Part shown: positions 18,502 through 24,935 of the stretch, one piece after another | Numbering within the stretch: position 1 is the first letter of the stretch | Layout of the letters: each line of letters starts with the position of its first letter | NCBI GenBank assembly: GCA_903847275.1 | Contig: CAINDC010000001.1 | Span: 1 to 42,979, forward strand | Length of the DNA: 42,979 nt | Reading direction: 5' to 3' | Origin: an uncultured Pseudomonadota bacterium | GTDB taxonomy: Bacteria > Pseudomonadota > Gammaproteobacteria > Methylococcales > Methylomonadaceae | Program-made: the position numbers and the translations under genes | The notes under the pieces: generated by a model | Told to the model about the DNA's origin: nothing | Databases searched by the model: none | Seen by the model: the letters and a program-made list of their open reading frames with translations, nothing else

Positions 18502-18741
18502 TTATTTTTGAGTTGTATTTTTTACGTCACTATCAACAACACTAGTCTTATCAATTTTTATTTGATTATTTTGGCTGTTTGATCGTTGAGTGTCATTAGT
18601 TACATCATTCTGTCTTTTATCAATAACAATGTTGTCTACATTTGTGCTGAGAACATTGTTATTCTCTGTATTTCCCCAAACCGCTGTAAATGGAATACTA
18701 CTTAGGAAAACATTAACAACTACAATTTTTAATAACTTCAT
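18502..18741 (-). CDS. Small exported Asn/Asp/Thr-rich protein
   Basis: 79 residues from the ATG at 18741: signal peptide MKLLKIVVVNVFLSSIPFTAVWG, then a low-complexity polar tail rich in Asn, Asp, Thr and Ser with several acidic residues. Its start overlaps the stop of the 55-aa gene by the ATGA arrangement, showing translational coupling. An upstream in-frame ATG lies inside that gene. No family is recognised. The polar tail full of hydroxyl and acidic side chains would be a conceivable substrate for ester crosslinking, but nothing shows this. Confidence 0.65.
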   Translation of the reverse strand: MKLLKIVVVNVFLSSIPFTAVWGNTENNNVLSTNVDNIVIDKRQNDVTNDTQRSNSQNNQIKIDKTSVVDSDVKNTTQK

Positions 18742-18905
18742 TTCACTACGCCCGTTTTTCCATCTACACAACGTAATACTGCTAATGCCTCACCATGTGT
18801 TTCGTCAAAATATGCAGCAGCAGTCATGCACGCTCTTAGACTGGTAAATTGAATCGTGGTAACTGGGGTAGATGCGTAAACCCACATCATAATTAACGTA
18901 ACCAT
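18738..18905 (-). CDS. 55-aa small protein
   Basis: A gene below common length cut-offs. The ATG at 18905 is preceded by AGGAG at good spacing. The protein has a hydrophobic start (MVTLIMMWVYASTP), TTIQFTSLRACMTAAAYFDE, and a late VLRCVDGKTGVVK, with two Cys. Small proteins of this layout (hydrophobic start, IEF-like strand, one Cys in each half) are common in phages and islands, but I cannot name a family. It is coupled to the next gene by a 4-nt ATGA overlap, and 40 nt separate it from the 194-aa gene upstream, so three genes form one minus-strand unit. Confidence 0.75.
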   Translation of the reverse strand: MVTLIMMWVYASTPVTTIQFTSLRACMTAAAYFDETHGEALAVLRCVDGKTGVVK

Positions 18906-18945
18906 TTTAAAATCTCCTGTTTAAAATACACCTTATAGTCTTTAA

Positions 18946-19530
18946 TCAACCATTGAATGGCTGAATAAACTTTTTAGCTTGCCTATAGTCTAAAACCTTC
19001 TCGTTTTGATTTTTCAAATTAAAAACATGATATTCGTCACCGACTGCATTCCCCCCACAAGCTGTCACGACCAATAAAAGAGACTCAACGCCTTTATATT
19101 CAACGCATGACATTTCAGAATAGCAACTAGGATCTAATGTGATGTCATTGTCATCAAAACTCAAAACAGGGCTAAAATCCACTGGTGTCCAACGCATTCC
19201 GCGTGCAAATTGAATTTTCGTTGCTGAACACTGTAAAGTCCCAACAGTCTGTTCTTCTAGTGAGTACAATTTCCCATTATTAAGACTTACCCGCTGATTT
19301 TTCTTTTTTTTAGCCGTTTTCTTTTTTGTATTTTGTTTTGCAGAATCTTTTTTCTCATCAGCAAAAAGCGTTTTTTCTACCGCTGTACCTGCTAACGCGC
19401 CACTAACAGTTTTTGCTCCCCATTTCAAAACACCAGAAAGTGAATTTGCAAAAATCATTGGGCTAAACAACAAAATTGCCAACATCATCACAAATTTGAG
19501 AATCGTAGTCTTAGATAATTTGATTGCCAT
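18946..19530 (-). CDS. Exported hypothetical protein, 194 aa
   Basis: I start it at the ATG at 19530 giving MAIKLSKTTILKFVMMLAILLFSPMIFAN, a clear signal peptide. Longer in-frame starts run through the terminator hairpin at 19609 and are unlikely. After the signal come a short glycine/alanine segment (SGVLKWGAKTVSGALAG), a strongly basic stretch KKTAKKKKNQR (about 73-83), and a C-terminal domain with four cysteines. The pattern suggests an exported or periplasmic protein with one or two disulfides. No family recognised; the ribosome binding site is weak. Confidence 0.7.
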   Translation of the reverse strand: MAIKLSKTTILKFVMMLAILLFSPMIFANSLSGVLKWGAKTVSGALAGTAVEKTLFADEKKDSAKQNTKKKTAKKKKNQRVSLNNGKLYSLEEQTVGTLQCSATKIQFARGMRWTPVDFSPVLSFDDNDITLDPSCYSEMSCVEYKGVESLLLVVTACGGNAVGDEYHVFNLKNQNEKVLDYRQAKKFIQPFNG

Positions 19531-19608
19531 AAAAATTCTAATTTTGTTATGAAATTTTTTATTTTTGTTTTTCAATAATTTTATGCACACCATGTCGTGC
19601 AAACACAT

Positions 19609-19637
19609 AAAACGCGACTTTTTAGGGTCGCGTTTTT
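19609..19637. terminator. Bidirectional hairpin terminator, copy B
   Basis: A 10-bp stem (AAAACGCGAC at 19609-19618 with GTCGCGTTTT at 19627-19636) with loop TTTTTAGG, the same as the hairpin at 18458. It lies 17 nt past the end of the 163-aa gene on the minus strand and so ends the graspetide operon. Confidence 0.85.
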
Positions 19638-19653
19638 CATAAAGCAATAAACG

Positions 19654-20145
19654 TTAAAGTTTTCCTTTTACTCGTTTTTCAATTTCGTAAATAGATAAAA
19701 AATTGGCAGGTTTATAGATGAAATCGCTTAATACAAGTGGTATCGAAAACTTATGCTTTCCAGATCTTGCAATTTCATTCCTAACCAAATTGTTATTTAT
19801 GATAATTTCAGTGGGGAAATAAATCGGTACGCAATTATAATTGGGCAACAAAGGTAACTTCGCTATCCAACTGTATGAAAAAGCCCTAGCATCTGTTTTA
19901 AGAGGTGCCAAAATAAGCATTGGTATTTCATTATTACAACCATGTGGTTCATCCGTATAAAATTCAACATAACTTTGTTTTAACGAACGCTCCGTTTCTG
20001 CCTCCAATAAAGGCTTTAAAAAATCGTTTAACGCCTTAACTAAATCAGTAAAATAAGCCGACGAGCAAATAAAATTTTCTACATCTTTGTTTGCACTAAT
20101 TTCTTGTACAACATCTGGAAAAAGACCAATTTGACTAAGATTCAC
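19654..20145 (-). CDS. Unknown protein, third gene of the graspetide-type operon
   Basis: 163 residues, GTG start at 20145 with GGAG six bases upstream, 23 nt after the ATP-grasp stop. It has no signal peptide and no long hydrophobic helix, so it is probably cytoplasmic. Notable stretches are VEFYTDEPHGCNNEIPMLIL and NYNCVPIYFPTEIIINNN. I do not recognise the family. Position directly behind the ligase, before the terminator, makes it a candidate accessory factor for maturation, immunity or export. Confidence 0.7.
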   Translation of the reverse strand: MNLSQIGLFPDVVQEISANKDVENFICSSAYFTDLVKALNDFLKPLLEAETERSLKQSYVEFYTDEPHGCNNEIPMLILAPLKTDARAFSYSWIAKLPLLPNYNCVPIYFPTEIIINNNLVRNEIARSGKHKFSIPLVLSDFIYKPANFLSIYEIEKRVKGKL

Positions 20146-20168
20146 AATTCACTCCAAAAAATTAAACA

Positions 20169-21059
20169 TCAATTTGGCAAAAGATATTTTGCCACCATTT
20201 TTACTAAACCAATTTCTTCCGAATAATCCAAAAATACCCATTGACCATTTGCATTGAATTCAAGAAAAATTAAATCGTCGTTTAACGTCATCAAATCCAA
20301 ACGCCCAAAATCAACGCCTAAATCGTTTGCAAAGTTCACAATCGACGTTGATTGTTTTTCAGTCAAATCAAACAAAAACCACTCTTTTTTGTTCATGTCG
20401 AAAGTTTGTTCTTTTCGCCAGTCCAAACCTTCTAAATCACCACGACTACGATAAAAAGCAAACTGTTTATCTCCACAAATAAAAATAGTCACATCTGCAT
20501 CGCTAGTAATTTTTTCTTGCAAAAACCACTGAAACTCAGGATGCAAGGTTTCTGCTTTAACTTCCGTTGTGAATAATGCTTTGTTAGTTGTTGTCAGTCC
20601 AGATGTTAAAGACTTTGCAACAGTTGGCTTGTTTTCGAGTTTTTCCAAACCGCCAAGTCCCAATGTAATCAACGTATGAGGAATTTTGAAATAATTTGAG
20701 GCAATGTTGAGAATGTTCATTTTTCCCATGTGATTATGAAAATCATGGGGGTTGCCTTTTGCTAAACCTTTTAATCGACACCAATGATACAGTTCACGAC
20801 AAACATATTTCGCTTCCTCAACAATAAAGGGTTCTTCATCCATCAAATAAAAACTAAACGCTTTCCACCAAAACGCACTCGTCACTGTATTTGAATTGAT
20901 ATTGTGACCAACAGGATTTGAAATTTCCCAATAATCAGGCGTGAATTGAAAACGATATTCTTTGAATAAATCGTAATTAAACCGAAAAACATTCGTCCCC
21001 AATTCTTGAATAAGACGGTCGCTAGTGCCATCCAGCGAACCTGTAAATAATAACAGCAC
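20169..21059 (-). CDS. Graspetide-type (MvdC/MvdD-like) ATP-grasp peptide ligase
   Basis: 296 residues. I start it at GTG 21059 because GGAGA sits six bases upstream; the TTG two codons earlier would sit directly on that site. The sequence follows the layout of RiPP-modifying ATP-grasp ligases: a pre-ATP-grasp N-terminus (VFRFNYD), FWWKAF at 63-68, a lysine near 149 (VAKSL), DWRKEQ from 213, and the metal/ATP site RLDL...FLEFNANGQW with Asp255, Glu267 and Asn269. The final NxNGQW motif is characteristic of graspetide ligases, which use ATP to join Thr/Ser or Lys side chains to Asp/Glu in a precursor. It is directly downstream of a 66-aa precursor candidate. RimK-type enzymes are the alternative, but the WW block and NGQW end favour graspetide. 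Confidence 0.85.
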   Translation of the reverse strand: MLLLFTGSLDGTSDRLIQELGTNVFRFNYDLFKEYRFQFTPDYWEISNPVGHNINSNTVTSAFWWKAFSFYLMDEEPFIVEEAKYVCRELYHWCRLKGLAKGNPHDFHNHMGKMNILNIASNYFKIPHTLITLGLGGLEKLENKPTVAKSLTSGLTTTNKALFTTEVKAETLHPEFQWFLQEKITSDADVTIFICGDKQFAFYRSRGDLEGLDWRKEQTFDMNKKEWFLFDLTEKQSTSIVNFANDLGVDFGRLDLMTLNDDLIFLEFNANGQWVFLDYSEEIGLVKMVAKYLLPN

Positions 21060-21080
21060 TAGCAATCTCCAAATTTTTAA

Positions 21081-21281
21081 TCAATCGTTGTCGTTATCTC
21101 TAGGACTGCCGTGACTGTCGAATGTAGCAGTTCCATTGTTAGTTGATTGATAAATAGGCTCATTATTCATAGAAACAACTACTTGTTCTTGATGACTGTA
21201 TTTTGTTTGTTCATCGATTGTAATCGCGGCAGGTGCTGCGGCAAGAGCCAATGGTGTAATTAACGCTGCAATTGTAAGCAT
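21081..21281 (-). CDS. Putative graspetide precursor peptide (66 aa)
   Basis: ATG at 21281 with a strong AGGAGA seven bases upstream. The N-terminus is a hydrophobic leader (MLTIAALITPLALAAAPAA) without basic residues, followed by a polar middle and a C-terminal tail TATFDSHGSPRDNDND. Thr47, Thr51, Thr53, Ser56 and Ser59 are possible hydroxyl donors; Asp55, Asp62, Asp64 and Asp66 are possible acceptors. The typical microviridin leader motif PFFARFLE is not present. The gene is the first of the operon, 21 nt before the ligase. The precursor role is inferred from size, position and composition. Confidence 0.65.
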   Translation of the reverse strand: MLTIAALITPLALAAAPAAITIDEQTKYSHQEQVVVSMNNEPIYQSTNNGTATFDSHGSPRDNDND

Positions 21282-21300
21282 GATTTTCTCCTTGAGAATT

Positions 21301-21336
21301 TTGTGAATTTTTATCGCAAACCGTCTGTGACGGTAA
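21301..21336 (-). promoter_or_regulatory. Candidate promoter of the graspetide-type operon
   Basis: On the minus strand, TTACCG (21336-21331) and TAAAAA (21313-21308) are 17 bp apart, about 27 nt from the precursor start. The -35 match is poor. It overlaps a palindrome at 21320-21334. Confidence 0.35.
21320..21334. promoter_or_regulatory. Palindromic operator candidate (XRE regulator site)
   Basis: A perfect 6-3-6 inverted repeat, ACCGTC-TGT-GACGGT, in the gap between the divergent precursor gene and the XRE gene. It lies across the -35/spacer of both predicted promoters, as expected of an autorepressor site. Confidence 0.45.
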
Positions 21337-21355
21337 GCGGCGAGTAGTGTAAAAT
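21327..21355 (+). promoter_or_regulatory. Candidate promoter of the XRE regulator gene
   Basis: GTGACG at 21327-21332 and TAAAAT at 21350-21355, spacer 17 bp. The -35 overlaps the palindrome. A leader of about 55 nt would precede the ATG at 21416. Confidence 0.4.
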
Positions 21356-21415
21356 CGCGTTCACCTATTTACCAACAACAAACAGTGGTTACATACACCC
21401 TTTCAGTGTGGATTT

Positions 21416-21814
21416 ATGAAAATACATGAAAAAATACGTTCAATGCGTGAGTCTAGCAATTGGTCACAAGAAGAAATGGCGGACAAACTCAATATGTCGG
21501 TAAATGGCTATTCAAAAATTGAACGCGGTGAAACAAATCCCCATATTCCAAAATTAAAACAAATCGCCAAAGAATTTAATGTAGATTTACTTGAATTGAT
21601 GTCTGAAAACAGAAATGTTTATTTAATTAGCGATAACGGAAACAATCATGGTTGCAACGTCATCGGCTCATCAACCGAAATCGCCTTTGAAATTCAAAAA
21701 TTAAAATCTGACCTTGAACACAAAAACGAAATTATTGAGTTGCAAAAACGTGATATTTTGCGATTAGAAGAAATGCTTGAGTTAATGAAATCTGTGAATT
21801 TGGAGCGAACATGA
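21416..21814 (+). CDS. XRE-family transcriptional regulator with coiled-coil tail
   Basis: 132 residues. Residues about 1-60 form a Cro/C1-type helix-turn-helix (IRSMRESSNWSQEEMADKLNMSVNGYSKIERGETNPHIPKL). A short linker follows, then a helical stretch from about residue 83 (IAFEIQKLKSDLEHKNEIIELQKRDI) that looks like a dimerising coiled coil. It diverges from the putative precursor operon with a palindrome between, so control of that operon is likely but unproven. Its stop overlaps the start of the next gene by ATGA. Confidence 0.85.
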   Translation: MKIHEKIRSMRESSNWSQEEMADKLNMSVNGYSKIERGETNPHIPKLKQIAKEFNVDLLELMSENRNVYLISDNGNNHGCNVIGSSTEIAFEIQKLKSDLEHKNEIIELQKRDILRLEEMLELMKSVNLERT

Positions 21815-22206
21815 AATCAAAATTAGTTGTTGCGGCACTTTTGTTGGCGTTACCTTTTGTGGCGAACGCTGACCGATATGGACATCGTGGCGGACATCAT
21901 CGCGGCGGCGGTAATCAGTGGATTGCACCTGCCATTATCGGTGGCGCGATTGTAGGTTCAGCAATATATGGCATTACTCGCGATGATGAACCGCAATATG
22001 AACATAATGACAGACATTACCGCCGAGAATTAACGCAACGTGAAATTCGAGAAGAACAATTAAGGCAACGTGAAATGGAACTTGAACGCCGTGAACATGA
22101 GTATTACGAACGTCAAAATCGCGCCCGTGGTTACAATCGTGAAAATTGCAAAGAGTATTATCGCGATGATGGCAATTCAAATTATTACTCAAGAAATTGC
22201 TGGTAA
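21811..22206 (+). CDS. Exported basic/glycine-rich hypothetical protein
   Basis: 131 residues: signal peptide MKSKLVVAALLLALPFVANA, then a His/Gly/Arg-rich stretch (DRYGHRGGHHRGGG), a glycine-zipper-like hydrophobic segment (IAPAIIGGAIVGSAIYG, about 45-61), a charged helix rich in Glu/Arg, and a Tyr/Asn-rich tail with two Cys. Such layouts are seen in envelope-associated proteins. The His cluster could bind metal. Coupled to the XRE gene by a 4-nt overlap. Confidence 0.75.
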   Translation: MKSKLVVAALLLALPFVANADRYGHRGGHHRGGGNQWIAPAIIGGAIVGSAIYGITRDDEPQYEHNDRHYRRELTQREIREEQLRQREMELERREHEYYERQNRARGYNRENCKEYYRDDGNSNYYSRNCW

Positions 22207-24158: not shown

Positions 24159-24935
24159 ATGGATTTTGATTTTTCATTTTTTTTATTTGTCGCGACGGTG
24201 GTAACAGGAGTTATTTGGGGCGGTTATGCGTGGTATTTGAAACGTCAAAATGTCCCTTATGATATTGAAAAAGAACCAATTTTAGTTGAATACGCGCATT
24301 CCTTTTTCCCTGTTGTGTTAATTGTATTTTTGCTGCGTTCGTTTATTGCCGAGCCATTTCGGATTCCGTCTGGTTCAATGATGCCGACGTTGTTGGTGGG
24401 TGATTTTATTTTGGTGAATAAATTTACCTACGGCATCCGTATTCCTGTGATTAACAAAAAAGTCATCGAATTAAGTCAGCCTAGACGTGGCGATATTGTC
24501 GTTTTTCGTTATCCAAAAAATCCTGAAATTGATTATATTAAACGGCTGATTGGTTTACCACACGATAAAATTTCGTATATAAACAAACGATTAACTGTAA
24601 ATGGGCAAGCGATTCCTGAAACCGCGTTGGGAGAATATCAAGGCGTAGGTCAAGGCGAAGATATGACAGGCGCGGCGAATTTCTTGGAAAATTTGACTGG
24701 CGTGGAACATCAAATTTTGAATCGTGATGGCGTGCAATCGGTTGAATTTACTTACACAATTCCCGAAGGTCAGTATTTCATGATGGGCGACAACCGCGAT
24801 AACAGTAATGACAGTCGCTATTGGGGAACGGTTCCTGAAGAAAATTTAGTAGGTAAAGCGTTTTTTATTTGGATGAGTTGGGATTGGCAACACAAAGGTG
24901 TTGATTTTTCACGGATTGGAACGGTTTTGAAATAG
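24159..24935 (+). CDS. lepB: Signal peptidase I
   Basis: 258 residues with two N-terminal transmembrane segments (about 5-25 and 48-63). Catalytic Ser73 in RIPSGSMMPTLLVGDFILV and the Lys128 base in DYIKRLIGLP are present, and MGDNRDNSNDSRYWG is the box E motif. It removes signal peptides from exported proteins at the outer face of the inner membrane. Its stop abuts the rnc start. Confidence 0.96.
   Translation: MDFDFSFFLFVATVVTGVIWGGYAWYLKRQNVPYDIEKEPILVEYAHSFFPVVLIVFLLRSFIAEPFRIPSGSMMPTLLVGDFILVNKFTYGIRIPVINKKVIELSQPRRGDIVVFRYPKNPEIDYIKRLIGLPHDKISYINKRLTVNGQAIPETALGEYQGVGQGEDMTGAANFLENLTGVEHQILNRDGVQSVEFTYTIPEGQYFMMGDNRDNSNDSRYWGTVPEENLVGKAFFIWMSWDWQHKGVDFSRIGTVLK

Follow-up and report, generated by a model that had tools for sequence, protein, structure and literature searches.

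I found a two-gene unit in the DNA of an uncultured gammaproteobacterium of the Methylomonadaceae family that is very probably a minimal graspetide (omega-ester peptide) gene pair, consisting of a 66-aa precursor and an ATP-grasp ligase. The window analyzed is the whole 42,979-nucleotide stretch of contig CAINDC010000001.1 (assembly GCA_903847275.1). Judged from the sequences, the pair belongs to a rare graspetide family scattered among Proteobacteria, which is new as a family and not as a class. Newness was judged against the main-text parts of PMC8939145 and PMC13097080, a comparison that stops at the supplementary graspetide group tables (groups 1-43).

Three adjacent genes were found on the minus strand where the earlier note had placed them. 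The precursor gene (positions 21081 to 21281), identified by its ORF call, homology, and purifying selection, is followed by the gene of the graspetide synthetase, an ATP-grasp macrocyclase (20169 to 21059; 296 aa), and by a third gene (19654 to 20145) for a 163-aa protein whose family was not recognized. The ligase may start at a GTG codon (21059; 296 aa) or at a TTG codon (21065; 298-aa frame). The GTG codon is the best start, because the GGAGA Shine-Dalgarno sequence abuts the TTG codon and most homologues begin with MLLL or similar residues. With the GTG start, the gap is 21 nt between the precursor and the ligase and 23 nt between the ligase and the 163-aa gene, as had been claimed, and AAGGAG or GGAG precedes each of the three starts, in agreement with the good ribosome binding sites described before. 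A terminator-like hairpin with a 10-pair stem and then a T-rich tail lies 3′ of the third gene (19609 to 19636, minus strand); in the pattern scan alone, the region has six terminator-like sites against 3.2 ± 1.8 in shuffles.

Is this pair found in other bacteria? One scan of a genome collection, run with two peptide patterns and liable to overlook relatives, gave 12 loci. Of these, L014 was dropped: it is the C-terminal end of a ligase and comes from the bin of L007, where the contig end truncates the ligase. The ligase subfamily occurs in 12 species of alpha-, beta-, and gammaproteobacteria including that of the window: two members of the window's genus (the window and L004), a Methylococcus MAG (L005), Sphingorhabdus and kin (L008, L009, and L015, the Sphingorhabdus trio below), Azospirillum oleiclasticum (L013), an alphaproteobacterial MAG (L010), three betaproteobacterial or Burkholderiales MAGs (L007, L011, and L012), and another MAG (L006). 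Within the window's order, the ligase is present in three of 311 genomes, and a profile search of a 398-genome sample of the phylum gave four distant ligases besides that of the window's genome (E 3e-21 to 2e-13). A lack of the small upstream gene in homologues would have counted against the reading of the earlier note; a homologous precursor gene lies directly upstream of the ligase gene in 12/12 loci. The precursor profile found exactly one precursor in each of the 12 ligase genomes and none in four congeners devoid of the ligase; since the profile was built from the same 12 precursors, this result speaks for uniqueness and not for discovery.

In an all-versus-all comparison of the ORFs (at least 60 aa) around the loci, the recurrent genes were those of the ligase, the precursor, and XRE proteins, along with the 163-aa gene shared by the window and L004. 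The other matches were resolvases of L010 and L013, a kinase-like pair of the window and L009, a pair between L006 and L014, shadow ORFs opposite the ligase, and flanks common to the Sphingorhabdus trio. L010 and L013 have resolvase or integrase genes in their vicinity. Since the ligase tree has weak inner support, horizontal transfer is suggested by the scattered distribution only. Between the window and L004, dS was 0.32 for the ligase but 1.05, 0.81, and 1.16 for the precursor, the 163-aa gene, and the XRE gene, respectively, and the dS of the precursor exceeds that of the ligase in the Sphingorhabdus trio as well; this unevenness may be noise, because the genes are short. As for the host, the window's genome has a pmoA/amoA-family gene (PF02461, E 7.8e-129), as do its congeners G271 and G272. 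Together with the order, this makes it very probable that the host is a methanotroph. The same PF02461 search gave no match in G054, the genome of L005, which is of the same order and is recorded as Methylococcus.

The ligase was compared with family models, known structures, and its homologues. A Pfam scan gave no match for the window ligase, while its NCBIfam matches are all graspetide maturases: TIGR04187 (E 2e-16), MvdC (1.7e-12), MvdD (1.2e-11), and grasp-with-SPASM (4.2e-11). These scores are far below every curated NCBIfam cut-off, among them those of TIGR04187 (60.1 vs 350 bits) and of the microviridin ligases MvdC (47.1 vs 425 bits) and MvdD (44.4 vs 475 bits). The HMM check proposed for the graspetide-type ligase gave matches to TIGR04187 (best E 3.7e-19) and MvdC in 12/12 family ligases and to MvdD and grasp-with-SPASM in 11/12. 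A search of PDB sequences with the family profile returned five matches, all of them ligases of the microviridin type or related to it, namely CdnC, AMdnB, 5ig8 and 5ig9 (both entitled "ATP grasp ligase" and corresponding to MdnB and MdnC), and 9bou, which is PruB. I take PruB to be a graspetide ligase. The AlphaFold model of the window ligase (pLDDT 84.8) has its best structural match in MdnC (Z 24.9, with an rmsd of 2.4 across 276 residues). The nine top structure entries are of MdnC, PruB, AMdnB, CdnC, MdnB, and PsnB (Z at least 20.6), followed by RimK (Z 19.0), and Foldseek placed graspetide-type ligases in ranks 1 to 29. The NxNGQW motif is present as FNANGQW at residues 270 to 276 of the 298-aa frame, but the ligase does not end in it as had been stated, since 22 residues follow. 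In the same numbering, R217, D257, E269, N271, and N273-G-Q-W are kept in 11/11 alignment rows reaching them, and the distant ligases L044 and L047 carry INPNGQW. By its profile matches, the PDB profile search, and the predicted fold, the ligase is assigned to the graspetide-synthetase group and not to RimK.

The precursor consists of a leader (residues 1 to 33; 21183 to 21281, minus strand), with a hydrophobic LITPLALA motif and then YSHxxQ, and a predicted core (residues 47 to 66; 21084 to 21143, minus strand), with the donors T47, T51, and T53, a G58-x-P60 segment, and the acceptors D62, D64, and D66. In the leader, T9, A14, H30, and Q33 are invariant across the 12 precursors and P10, L13, and Y28 are nearly so. 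According to the main-text parts of PMC8939145, a general leader motif of graspetides, Phhx(1,2)h, exists in about half of precursors. This motif (h being A, V, I, L, M, F, Y, or W) was found in 11 of the 12 precursors checked, including that of the window, and is absent from L011. The statement that the microviridin leader motif is missing holds for PFFARFL, which was not found in the window precursor, but the general motif is there. At the C-terminal side, all 12 precursors have [ST]-x3-T-x-T-x8-D-x-D-x-D with fixed spacing, so that alignment of the tails bore out the small peptide with Ser/Thr donors and alternating Asp residues. The 12 sequences share three hydroxyl donors and the same number of invariant Asp acceptors: T51, T53, G58, P60, D62, D64, and D66 never vary, and four residues N-terminal to T51 the donor is Thr in 11 sequences and Ser in the remaining one. 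This core pattern had no second match in the window or the examined loci and did not occur in 60 mononucleotide shuffles of the window (0/60); the shorter tail pattern GxPxDxDxD gave one extra, unrelated match, in L010.

The dN/dS ratio of the precursor is 0.17 between the window and L004 and 0.10 to 0.12 within the Sphingorhabdus trio (0.10 to 0.17 for the four pairs overall), indicating that the 66-aa peptide is under purifying selection. Two of the 12 precursors weakly match TIGR04186, "putative ATP-grasp-modified RiPP" (16.4 and 15.6 bits against a cut-off of 25), and that of the window does not match; across 398 Pseudomonadota genomes, TIGR04186 gave six weak matches, none above the cut-off. 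Four precursors (those of the Sphingorhabdus trio and L012) have exactly two Cys residues, the first placed shortly ahead of the first donor and the second at the C-terminus, and the other eight have none. A natural reading is that the two Cys residues may pair in a disulfide that closes the core on its outside. Such a disulfide would join both core ends and would be compatible with nested and interlocked rings alike. Judged from the ligase tree, the Cys pair may have arisen once or twice.

Could the ligase act on the peptide, or on something else, in another manner? An ATP-grasp enzyme like RimK might extend the peptide at its acidic C-terminus with amino acids and form no crosslinks, and the invariant D-x-D-x-D at the extreme C-terminus of 8/12 precursors, as well as the RimK fold with its only somewhat lower Z, would fit such tailing. 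However, the other four precursors run 4 or 7 residues beyond the third Asp, the conserved Thr residues would be left unexplained, and the NGQW of known graspetide ligases is conserved. Moreover, with E values up to 1 allowed, the RimK HMM did not match the window ligase, and in the family it matched only one of 12 ligases (E 2.9e-4). RimK identity, which the earlier note had named as a test of its reading, was rejected by the HMMs for the window and the family and by the structure ranking, and tailing is very improbable. Still more remote is the idea that the small ORF encodes an unrelated secreted peptide and that the ligase acts on another substrate. Its N-terminus is indeed hydrophobic and signal-peptide-like, but the first 20 residues contain no Lys or Arg in 10/12 precursors and only one in the other two, the gene is linked one-to-one with the ligase in 12/12 genomes, and the donors and acceptors are conserved at fixed spacing. 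The preferred reading is a graspetide precursor with its synthetase. Anti-phage defense, phage origin, and plasmid carriage were also rejected. For anti-phage defense, the best PADLOC match of the ligase had E 0.031 and the precursor and 163-aa protein had none; within the unit, PADLOC matched only the XRE gene (14 HTH families). For phage origin, one pattern-limited scan of viral contigs gave no relative, and in PHROGs the ligase had one match (E 0.019) and the precursor had no match; the XRE gene matches phage regulators there, as the XRE family does. For plasmid carriage, one of 72,556 records, from Agrobacterium, was found (25% identity), annotated as MvdC/MvdD family and not of the window's subfamily.

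The earlier note had counted the 163-aa gene as a member of the system, which would make its product a required partner, like MirC of rosaritide, or a tailoring enzyme. The gene is situated immediately behind the ligase and before the terminator-like hairpin and is present in both ligase-bearing members of the genus, and partner-dependent ligases exist according to the main-text parts of PMC13097080. Against this, the 163-aa protein was found in three of the 311 genomes of the order, all within the window's genus, and in none of the 10 other family genomes (0/10) with a query that gave matches in the three genus genomes. In G272, a 163-aa homologue (54% identical) lies at a site with the same XRE gene (97% identical) and lepA flank, where two other genes occupy the place of the window's precursor and ligase; neither of the latter was found in G272. 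Beyond the 163-aa gene, the flank is an ntrY-like gene in the window and a PIN/MazE-type pair with phosphate-transport genes (by eye) in G272, while in G271 the entire XRE-precursor-ligase-163-aa set is at a different site, beside a hypF-like gene. Comparison of these flanks suggests that the precursor and the ligase are exchangeable cargo and that the 163-aa gene is a bystander. Its protein had no Pfam, NCBIfam, or PDB-sequence match, and no fold was recognized in its structure model (pLDDT 68.5; best Foldseek E 1.1). Thus, a three-gene system is unlikely, if less so than tailing, and the 163-aa gene probably does not belong to the kit. The toxin-antitoxin-like pair that adjoins the homologue in G272 (L019, 758 to 1356) scored 66.2 bits for PIN and 30.4 bits for the MazE-type antitoxin.

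The recurring companion of the pair is not the 163-aa gene but a divergent XRE-family regulator. In the window, this gene is at 21416 to 21814 on the plus strand (HTH_3, 61.8 bits). In 9/11 assessable loci (the window, L004 to L009, L012, and L015), the upstream DNA holds a divergent XRE gene that scores above its Pfam cut-off; in L012, a small gene lacking a Pfam match separates it from the precursor. L011 is outside this count, as the locus begins 472 bases before the precursor. Of the remaining loci, L013 has only a weak small HTH match upstream, on the precursor strand (20.9 vs 23 bits), and L010 has four upstream ORFs with no HTH match. From its position, the regulator probably controls the precursor-ligase pair. 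An inverted repeat, ACCGTC-ACA-GACGGT (21320 to 21334), between the regulator and the precursor may be an operator or a 5′-UTR hairpin; it is weak alone, since 74/300 shuffles reach its arm length, and the like repeat of L004, with paired changes, is reached in 30/300. The Sphingorhabdus trio has the palindrome AATATCCCATATTGGGATATT and close variants in the XRE-precursor gap (L008, 4707 to 4727; L009, 4711 to 4729; L015, 4710 to 4730), with arm lengths reached in 1, 6, and 13 of 300 shuffles. It is likely an XRE operator. An operator common to all loci was not found, the trio alone having a clear palindrome. A block of about 40 bases 5′ of the XRE gene (AAATCCACACT...GTAACCACTGTTTGTTG, with small changes) was observed in the window (21376 to 21415), L024, L025, L027, and L028. 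It is kept across the genus while the divergent neighbor differs, which suggests a regulator with interchangeable cargo. Behind the XRE gene lies a gene for a His/Gly/Arg-rich, secreted-looking protein in the window (21811 to 22206), in G272, and in an XRE-paralogue locus of G271; besides the window, the loci concerned are L024, L033, and L037.

Among eight scanned window proteins (18502 to 22206), there was no protease, exporter, PpiC-like partner, or PCAT. Removal of the leader and export, if any, would therefore depend on unlinked proteins. A signal-peptidase-like gene, recognized by eye, is 3 kb off behind lepA (24159 to 24935) and looks like a housekeeping gene. Downstream of the unit, small genes for secreted-looking proteins lie on the minus strand (18502 to 19560), with a best family match no better than E 0.048.

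The closest characterized product found is rosaritide, a group 21 graspetide of the actinobacterium Micromonospora rosaria, as described in the main-text parts of PMC13097080. It has three Ser/Thr donors (S8, S9, and T11), the last two spaced 2 apart, and three alternating Asp acceptors (D22-x-D24-x-D26) toward the C-terminal end of its core, with a Pro just before them, and its links are T11-D24, S9-D26, and S8-D22. The "undescribed core topology" of the earlier note is consequently unproven. The rosaritide ligase belongs to TIGR04187, the best HMM of the window ligase. In contrast, the donor spacing is T-x3-T-x-T-x8-D here and S-S-x-T-x10-D in rosaritide, the present hosts are Proteobacteria, and neither a PpiC-like partner nor a PCAT protease-exporter, both described for rosaritide, was recognized beside the window genes. 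Since the rosaritide ligase requires its partner MirC (PMC13097080) and no partner was recognized here, activity of the present ligase alone would not be assured by this analogy. The SAV_5884/GRASP_targ systems (TIGR04187/TIGR04186) are similar in that TIGR04187 matches all the ligases and GRASP_targ weakly matches two of 12 precursors, but the scores are far under the curated cut-offs and the hosts here are Proteobacteria. The microviridin systems (MdnB/MdnC and MvdC/MvdD) share the fold, with MdnC giving the best Z, and the NGQW-type active-site motif, while the present unit has one ligase gene, a shorter ligase (296 aa), another core, and no PFFARFL leader. Fuscimiditide (group 13; PMC12291112) has two esters, T3-D22 and T7-D18, and a methyltransferase. 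Its Thr donors before and Asp acceptors after a loop resemble the present core, where a nested stem-loop may also form, whereas three donor/acceptor pairs are predicted here.

In the graspetide class, a carboxylate is phosphorylated with ATP and then attacked by Ser, Thr, or Lys (main-text parts of PMC13097080). By analogy, the ligase would bind the precursor by its N-terminal leader (LITPLALA...YSHxxQ) and use ATP to phosphorylate D62, D64, and D66 on their side-chain carboxylates. The hydroxyls of T47, T51, and T53 would then attack the activated carboxylates, forming up to three predicted macrolactones (-54 Da) across the G-x-P segment. The rings may be interlocked as in rosaritide (T53-D64, T51-D66, and T47-D62) or nested like a fuscimiditide-type stem (T53-D62, T51-D64, and T47-D66). 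A broader proposal, which is tentative and has somewhat less than an even chance of holding as a whole, is that this is an undescribed group with a stand-alone ligase lacking a partner, protease, and exporter. Its three Ser/Thr residues would be joined to the C-terminal D-x-D-x-D in a compact interlocked or nested tri-ester, in some members with an outer disulfide. The product might be XRE-repressed and act in or near the producer, encoded by a small cassette moving between Proteobacteria.

The pair adds a compact, strongly conserved proteobacterial graspetide family, including one in a probable methanotroph. The family joins rosaritide-like D-x-D-x-D acceptors to a ligase without a recurring partner gene. 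Thus, it offers a direct natural test of whether a partner protein is required for D-x-D-x-D acceptor patterns and of which ring connectivity follows from a given donor spacing.
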